In this document: one piece after another, positions 22,671 to 24,443 of the stretch
Layout of the letters: each line of letters begins with the position of its first letter
Position numbering within the stretch: the first letter of the stretch is position 1
DNA from: Nitrosopumilus sp.
Lineage (GTDB): Archaea > Thermoproteota > Nitrososphaeria > Nitrososphaerales > Nitrosopumilaceae
Direction: 5' to 3'
Assembly (NCBI RefSeq): GCF_025699125.1
Contig: NZ_JAILWC010000002.1
Coordinates: 186,001 to 250,000, forward strand
Length of the DNA: 64,000 bases
Notes under the pieces: model-generated
What the model was told of the DNA's origin: nothing
Databases searched by the model: none
Seen by the model: only the letters and a program-made list of their open reading frames with translations
Program-made: the position numbers and the translations under genes

Positions 22671-22877
22671 ATGGAATGGATGTTAGGTTTTACCGCTATT
22701 GCTCTTTTAGTGATAGGATTGGTGGGTCAGGCTTTTGAGATGAGAAAAATCAGATTATCAACATACAAAGATGAAGATTTAGGCTCGACAAATATTTTCA
22801 TGAATAAGAAAAATCTAAAATGGTATGCCATTTTGGGAATAGGAATTGTTTTGTGGTACGTAGCTGAGCGTATGTAA
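22671..22877 (+). CDS. Two-helix small membrane protein
   Basis: 68 residues with two hydrophobic segments (about 4-22 and 51-64) separated by a basic and polar loop (MRKIRLSTYKDEDLGS). No family is recognised. It is divergent from ilvE and lies 49 bp before the candidate structured RNA. Confidence 0.5.
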   Translation: MEWMLGFTAIALLVIGLVGQAFEMRKIRLSTYKDEDLGSTNIFMNKKNLKWYAILGIGIVLWYVAERM

Positions 22878-22925
22878 ATTATCTATATAGATCAGCTCTA
22901 TATACTAGAAATTGTAACATATAGT

Positions 22926-23022
22926 ATCGCGTGTTTAGGGTAACGCCCGGACTGAATCTAGATAATGGTCCAAGAACAAACCCTCGATGGCGCTTACAGG
23001 TGTAAAAACCCGTACGCCACAC
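22926..23022 (+). ncRNA. Candidate structured RNA, family unknown
   Basis: A TATA-like tctatata at 22897-22904 predicts a start near 22926. The following ~97 nt are less AT-rich than the flanks and can fold into a closed three-way junction. GUGU (22931-22934) pairs with ACAC (23019-23022). AGGGU (22937-22941) pairs with ACCCU (22980-22984), enclosing a GGACU/GGUCC helix (22949-22953 with 22967-22971). GGCG (22989-22992) pairs with CGCC (23015-23018) directly against the closing helix. No open reading frame is present. It is not a tRNA or a recognisable 5S, SRP or RNase P piece. An ACA trinucleotide follows the last helix, so an H/ACA-type guide is one possibility. Confidence 0.5.
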
Positions 23023-23027
23023 TTTCA

Positions 23028-24443
23028 CTAAATAAAATTAATTTTTGAAATCTCATGATGAATTGCTTTTATTGCTTTTCTTATGTTGTCATCAGCATCT
23101 TCTACAACAATTATAATTCGTGAAGTTTCTTCTTGTGCATCCATATTCAAAATATTTAATCCTGCATCACCAATCTTTGCACTAGTTCTTGATGCAACTT
23201 GTTGAACTCGCCACATCTCATCACCAATCAATGTAATCACTCCTCGATTGTATGTAATGGTTGCAAGAGAATCAAATCCTAACAAGTATTTTTCATTTCT
23301 TTTTACATAATCACCATCCAAGAATAAAATTCTAGAGAATTCTATTCCGTCTTTGGTAAATGGAGATAGCATTACAAATTCACTGTAACGCTTATCTTTT
23401 TCCAAAGATGTCAATAACTTTTGGATTAAATTAGTTTCAATTCTAAAGATTGCGCAATTTTCTTTTCCTGTAACTATTTTGATCGGATGTCCTTTTTGTT
23501 CATCTAATACCCTCTTTATTGTAGTAGTTTTTTCGGGATCATTCATATTTGTAATAATTATTGGAATATCCACCCCATTTTCTACAATCTCTTTAATTGC
23601 TATAGGATCTAAAATTTTCATTCCGAACATACCTGCTAGTCTTGCTTCATTGTATGACAATTGCAGAACTTGTGATAGATTAGATTCTACAATTTTTGGA
23701 TCTGCAGAAACCACTGCACTATCTTTCTCAAAATCTATACTAGTTTCGTATATTTTATGAAATAGTATTCCAAGATCTGCTGCGGTCCTATCTGAACCGC
23801 CACGCTCGTATGTAGTTGTAACGTTTCCAATTGTTTTTCCAATAAATCCCCCTATAGTAACTACTTCGTTTTGTTCTACTAATAGCGCAATTTTATCCAT
23901 ATTTTCTCTGGATTTTGAGGCAAGAAAATTAGTAGACTCTATATTGTTATCTGTAATTATTGGCCAATCATCGAAATCTACAGAATCAGATTTGATACCA
24001 TTGCTTTTTAGAATATAGTTCATTACATGAGACATCAATATTTCACCTGAAAATGCCAGTGCTCTAGAGCGAATTTCATCTACAAATTCTTTAGCATTTA
24101 GTGCATCATCAAGTGCTTTGCTGGCCTTTTTTAGATTCAGATCAATAGTATTTTTGCAATTCTCTTTATTTTCAGGACTTACCAATTGAAGAATTTTATC
24201 ATAAGTAGATTTCACAATATCTAAAGAAGGACTTTGTCCATTTTCTGCATTTTTTCCCTGCTCTAAAATTACATCTGTAAGCGAGCGTGTTTTTCCATTA
24301 TGTGTTGTTAGCGGGGCTGAAAAAACTGCAATTACTTTTGAATCTTTTTTCAAATTGTTGATGCGAGCGATTATTTCTGGAATCAGTATACCGTCAGGGC
24401 CAATTGCACTCCCACCAAATTTGGCAACGACTAGTTTAGTCAT
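23028..24443 (-). CDS. Aspartate kinase
   Basis: 471 residues. It phosphorylates aspartate in the lysine/threonine/methionine pathway. The N-terminal kinase domain begins KFGGSAIGPDG and continues with SRALAFSGEILMS and the YERGGSDRTAADLG loop. Two C-terminal ACT domains (about 320-470) would bind allosteric amino acids. Length is normal. The gene ends only a few bases from the candidate RNA. Confidence 0.92.
   Translation of the reverse strand: MTKLVVAKFGGSAIGPDGILIPEIIARINNLKKDSKVIAVFSAPLTTHNGKTRSLTDVILEQGKNAENGQSPSLDIVKSTYDKILQLVSPENKENCKNTIDLNLKKASKALDDALNAKEFVDEIRSRALAFSGEILMSHVMNYILKSNGIKSDSVDFDDWPIITDNNIESTNFLASKSRENMDKIALLVEQNEVVTIGGFIGKTIGNVTTTYERGGSDRTAADLGILFHKIYETSIDFEKDSAVVSADPKIVESNLSQVLQLSYNEARLAGMFGMKILDPIAIKEIVENGVDIPIIITNMNDPEKTTTIKRVLDEQKGHPIKIVTGKENCAIFRIETNLIQKLLTSLEKDKRYSEFVMLSPFTKDGIEFSRILFLDGDYVKRNEKYLLGFDSLATITYNRGVITLIGDEMWRVQQVASRTSAKIGDAGLNILNMDAQEETSRIIIVVEDADDNIRKAIKAIHHEISKINFI

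Follow-up and report, generated by a model that had tools for sequence, protein, structure and literature searches.

A conserved small RNA gene of the Nitrosopumilaceae with a palindromic loop that probably mediates self-pairing

Comparison of homologs shows a conserved RNA gene, single-copy and rarely duplicated, with its own conserved promoter within the window (the whole stretch of 64,000 nucleotides analysed from Nitrosopumilus sp.). That this stretch is an RNA gene is close to certain. A further-reaching interpretation, to which we assign a probability of about 0.6, is that this archaeal noncoding RNA, found family-wide in the Nitrosopumilaceae, would be a homodimer in which two pseudoknot domains are joined by a changing, still palindromic loop. 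Taken jointly, the RNA gene and the self-pairing of its product are likely.

Gene, promoter and distribution

The RNA is approximately 95–100 nt long, and its conservation begins with GCG at 22929. G+C content was 0.49 at 22925-23024, compared with 0.25-0.38 in the flanks, and no ORF of 60 aa was present within 22926-23022. Rfam 15 returned no family above the gathering threshold on either the + or the - strand, a permissive Rfam scan of the RNA stretch gave chance-level matches only, and ARAGORN detected no tRNA or tmRNA in it. Archaeal RNase P and SRP RNAs, likewise stable and stand-alone, are set apart, both having been located elsewhere in the same genome. The sequence-only reading had described, between convergent genes, a structured RNA of no assigned class that has no fitting ORF, is not recognisable as a standard RNA and is lower in A+T than its surroundings; these searches, together with the promoter, covariation and family-wide conservation described below, agree with that description.

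Table 1. Coordinates of the RNA gene, its predicted elements and its neighbours in the window
Feature	Position	Strand	Sequence	Remarks
68-aa protein gene	22671-22877	+		context; probably membrane; conserved
Promoter dyad	22881-22892	+	ATCTATATAGAT	12 bp; directly upstream of the TATA box
TATA-like box	22897-22904	+	TCTATATA	about 27 nt before 22929, the onset of conservation
RNA gene	~22926-23024	+		covariance-model matches; both ends estimated (5′ start 22926-22929, 3′ end about 23018-23046)
S1 (proposed pseudoknot strands)	22929-22932 / 22943-22946	+	GCGU / ACGC	
P1	22937-22941 / 22980-22984	+	AGGGU / ACCCU	exchanges UA/AU/GU and GC/CG/AU; pairing in 96.4% of cells
P2	22949-22953 / 22967-22971	+	GGACU / GGUCC	99% paired; double changes in 4/5 pairs
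Loop hexamer	22957-22962	+	UCUAGA	in the P2 loop; proposed self-kissing site
A-rich strand	22972-22979	+	AAGAACAA	P2 to P1; near-invariant in alignment A6
P3	22989-23000 / 23009-23018	+		double changes in all 10 modelled pairs
Aspartokinase gene (AA_kinase PF00696)	23028-24443	-		convergent; stop abuts the RNA 3′ end

The TATA box, which the earlier reading had placed at the right distance from the RNA, is conserved together with the dyad across 66 non-redundant upstream regions, while the spacer between them and the RNA is not. Relative to GTGTT, the TATA box occupies positions -33 to -26 and the dyad about -48 to -37; the box usually reads TCTAAATA in relatives. In five genomes, the sole exact match per genome to a 22-nt promoter pattern including the dyad precedes the RNA. 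In most second copies of the RNA a TATA box stands equally far upstream, and the dyad is missing. The dyad may be a candidate site for a regulator dedicated to this RNA, and we read the RNA as a probable independent transcription unit driven from the conserved promoter.

A BLASTN search of 61 genomes gave strong matches almost throughout the genus. Two covariance models were then used, R1 and, for a 57-nt core, R2. R1 detected the RNA across the family, and R2 found it in 191 of 250 family genomes, including 120 of the 131 near-complete ones; the genera represented are Nitrosopumilus, Nitrosarchaeum, Nitrosopelagicus, Cenarchaeum and Nitrosotalea. A scan of 398 genomes of the phylum gave no significant match outside the family (best E 0.04), and viral contigs gave no match to the RNA. 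A DNA pattern was present in at least 120 contigs from GTDB species genomes, and among the 80 matches listed all were thaumarchaeal by title apart from a few labelled "archaeon" only; since the pattern required intact core letters, it is unusable for judging variation in those letters. A link to amoA was considered and rejected, because genomes without the RNA have amoA.

In 198 of 221 loci, the gene abutting the 3′ end of the RNA encodes aspartokinase. This next gene is convergent and no co-directional gene follows downstream, which is not the arrangement of a cis riboswitch or leader. The 68-aa protein gene, for which no Pfam or NCBIfam family was matched, adjoins the RNA in most genomes; in Nitrosopelagicus, the RNA is kept and this gene was not found beside it. 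In the genera g27, g33 and g35 and in two outgroup families, no RNA lies between aspartokinase and the neighbour that it faces, and in g37 the 68-aa gene abuts aspartokinase with no RNA between. Absence is real in these four genera where aspartokinase is assembled, and the empty sites indicate that the RNA gene either arose inside the family or disappeared from those genera. G263 and G307 yielded distant aspartokinase homologs only, and G290 only part of the ortholog; absence of the RNA from these three may reflect incomplete assembly.

Some marine group I genomes carry the RNA away from aspartokinase (L093, L141 and L165, where it is the main copy; also L280, L282, L287 and L288), and in these displaced RNAs a hairpin with a long U-loop replaces the usual P3. 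Second copies were found at L086, L087, L220 and L291; L088 and L202; L089 and L292; and L090. They keep the 5′ domain and diverge in their 3′ hairpins, and most paralogs outside the aspartokinase site retain a TATA box. Genes in the neighbourhoods of second copies, named by eye from sequence, include those for dihydroxyacid dehydratase (ilvD), archaellins and a threonine synthase. A decayed-looking copy at L031:996-1076 (genome G011) has lost the P3 5′ strand and part of the invariant core and has kept UCUAGA.

Secondary structure and the proposed pseudoknot

Comparison among relatives shows a fold on the + strand consisting of a 5′ domain, in which P1 encloses P2, and the 3′ hairpin P3. When 83 distinct homologs were aligned to the model, standard pairs occupied 95.2% of pair cells, a figure biased in the model's favour because the alignment was fitted to it. 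Changes on both sides were found in 16 of 20 pairs, compared with 9.6 expected by shuffling; double-change cells numbered 150 against 28.9 in shuffled alignments, and the covariation score was 0.318 against 0.126, with none of 500 shuffles as high. As a control, sliding the partners by 1-3 columns reduced pairing to 25-55%. In a core alignment made with MAFFT alone, P1 and P2 covary as well. Compensatory changes in relatives, which had been set beforehand as a check on the structure, are thus present.

The details of the fold differ from those first proposed. The GUGU/ACAC helix that was to close a three-way junction forms all four of its pairs in only 11 of the 83 distinct homologs, and the junction is therefore not a conserved structure. 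The P2 and P3 hairpins of that earlier fold hold; as third helix, the comparison gives P1 (GGGU/ACCC).

Folded by itself, the sequence was unremarkable on the + strand (z -0.83); the - strand did somewhat better (z -2.17). Single-sequence folding is thus unconvincing for the + strand, and the case for structure rests on comparison. Strand is indicated by the exchanges themselves: GU pairs outnumber AC pairs by 123 to 22, or by 48 to 22 excluding a near-constant U-G pair, and this excess places the RNA on the + strand.

Other pairing schemes were rejected. RNAalifold, run on the initial MAFFT alignment, mixed up the registers of P3 and proposed another outer helix. The alternative GGGU partner within P3 (~23008-23011) does not survive in L029 and L030, unlike ACCC at 22980-22983. 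In L026, pairing between the repeated GUAACGCC and the 5′ strand of P3 is disrupted; P3 itself, in contrast, covaries.

S1 crosses P1 and, with a U-rich first linker and an A-rich last linker, could form an H-type pseudoknot, the odds of which we place near even. In such a pseudoknot two covarying crossing helices are expected. P1 covaries; S1 is paired in 99.2% of cells and nearly invariant, with one G-U change and no double change, and the pseudoknot therefore remains a proposal. The near-invariant stretches of the RNA would be its U-rich and A-rich linkers. In preQ1-II, the last loop of an H-type pseudoknot likewise carries a hairpin, and the topology proposed here (S1, U-rich loop, S2 corresponding to P1, A-rich last loop with hairpin P2) is of that kind; SAM-II is a further comparison. 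Unlike those RNAs, the present one is not in a 5′ leader, has no co-directional downstream gene, has an S1 that is itself proposed, and matches no Rfam family.

The palindromic loop and predicted self-pairing

A six-letter palindrome was found in the P2 loop of every one of 143 distinct homologs (73/73 distinct middle segments), and no loop breaking the palindrome occurred among the homologs examined, later finds included. The hexamer is mostly UCUAGA, otherwise UCAUGA or UCGCGA, with CCUAGG and AUCGAU in paralogs. Shuffled middle segments contain a 6-nt palindrome in 29% of cases, a weak comparison because the homologs share descent.

The changes on the tree are more informative about constraint. 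When mapped on the aspartokinase tree, UCAUGA involves four changes, at least three of them forced by well-supported branches, and UCGCGA represents one further change, to which the paralogs add CCUAGG and AUCGAU. Each change involving UCAUGA or UCGCGA altered both central letters and preserved the palindrome; three of the UCAUGA changes could also be one gain and two losses, which would still be double changes that keep the palindrome. Neighbouring letters such as the central two cannot pair with each other in a single molecule, so the constraint acts between molecules or on DNA. Preservation of a palindrome through changes at adjacent positions is what is expected of a kissing-loop RNA. We accordingly consider it quite likely, from this pattern of substitution, that two RNA molecules would pair through the palindromic P2 loop as a kissing-loop homodimer. 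With UCUAGA present in most homologs, some five or six independent events carry the case for the dimer. At -5.0 to -5.2 kcal/mol for UCUAGA and UCAUGA, pairing of the hexamer is weak, and dimer formation would depend on Mg2+, a high local concentration, a longer duplex or a protein.

Comparable loops occur elsewhere. The retroviral dimerisation-initiation-site hairpin carries a six-letter palindrome flanked by purines in its loop and kisses as a homodimer; the loop is of the same kind, although organism, gene and scaffold are unrelated and the dimer here is predicted. The ornate RNAs OLE, GOLLD and ROOL also have symmetric kissing loops, and in OLE and GOLLD the palindrome co-changes as in the present RNA; for these two, the argument from co-change of adjacent loop letters has been backed by cryo-EM contacts (PMC12286853). 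Those RNAs are large and bacterial or phage-borne, whereas the present one is small, archaeal and without an Rfam match. Our literature search found no report of a small archaeal homodimeric RNA with a changing palindromic loop.

Possible functions and significance

We favour a role in trans as a dimeric protein-binding RNA, proposed from sequence comparison. In this proposal, the dimer would present its two pseudoknot domains as a protein scaffold or decoy, and P3, whose sequence is free and whose shape is fixed, would serve mainly in stabilising or ending the transcript. Protein scaffolding as the specific function is tentative. If the pseudoknot forms, the conserved letters would be mostly structural, and a dimer that binds a protein or ligand would then be preferred to an antisense RNA.

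A constraint on DNA would be expected if the loop palindrome of the structured RNA gene were bound, as DNA, by a transcription factor acting as a dimer or by a modification enzyme and the RNA itself were monomeric. The promoter dyad makes a dimeric regulator near the gene plausible, but the palindrome falls precisely within the apical loop of a hairpin that covaries, and does so in paralogs without the dyad too, and a protein site would keep the letters that are read, whereas here the letters change and only self-complementarity is kept; we regard this explanation as improbable. We give similarly little weight to antisense regulation in trans, in which the conserved loop or single-stranded segments would pair with mRNAs. 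The long near-invariant unpaired stretches and a size typical of small regulatory RNAs suit such a role, as does a 40-nt match to the RNA (85%) at L032:1000-1045, in a coding stretch for a VirB4-like ATPase by eye, on the strand that makes its mRNA complementary. That match occurs in only 1 of 61 genomes and is likely due to chance, and a loop matching separate targets would not be expected to remain self-complementary.

Still less probable is cis control of the convergent aspartokinase mRNA, exerted by the RNA or by the complementary sequence in the 3′ UTR of that mRNA. The constancy of that neighbour and the probable overlap of the two transcripts speak for it, but copies with the same 5′ domain and TATA box lie elsewhere, in some genomes as the main copy, aspartokinase occurs without the RNA at the empty sites, and the GU/AC counts indicate the + strand; displaced copies and empty sites together make a cis role unlikely. 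An H/ACA or C/D guide RNA, for which the hairpins with an internal loop and the ACA after the last helix in the window might speak, is almost certainly not what this gene encodes. The ACA, from which an H/ACA-type guide had been suggested, is limited to a few species and is not among the 20 commonest post-hairpin triplets of 151 distinct sequences; box C (RUGAUGA) is absent from all 151, no Rfam guide family matched, and inspection of alignment A6 by eye revealed no kink-turn in the P1-P2 internal loop (AACGCC/AAGAACAA).

Our literature search found no report of this RNA and almost nothing on small RNAs of the Nitrosopumilaceae. Its transcript may have been detected earlier, for instance in a 2009 small-RNA survey of the ocean (Shi et al., Nature 459:266). 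One unnamed "conserved noncoding RNA" has been described as shared with N. maritimus (PMC3043068). The Tan1 RNA of marine group II Euryarchaeota is likewise an archaeal marine orphan noncoding RNA with a predicted structure, likened here by description; it is 229 nt long, belongs to another phylum and is known to be expressed (PMC5069720).

For reading RNA quaternary structure out of sequence, this RNA is a natural example, small and simple to test: molecules with UCUAGA, UCAUGA and UCGCGA loops would be expected to dimerise each with itself and not with one another. The ammonia-oxidising Nitrosopumilaceae are among the ocean's most abundant microbes, control much of its nitrification and are common in soil too. 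The presence of a single-copy RNA in nearly every genome, with a family-wide promoter, suggests that it likely matters to these cells.
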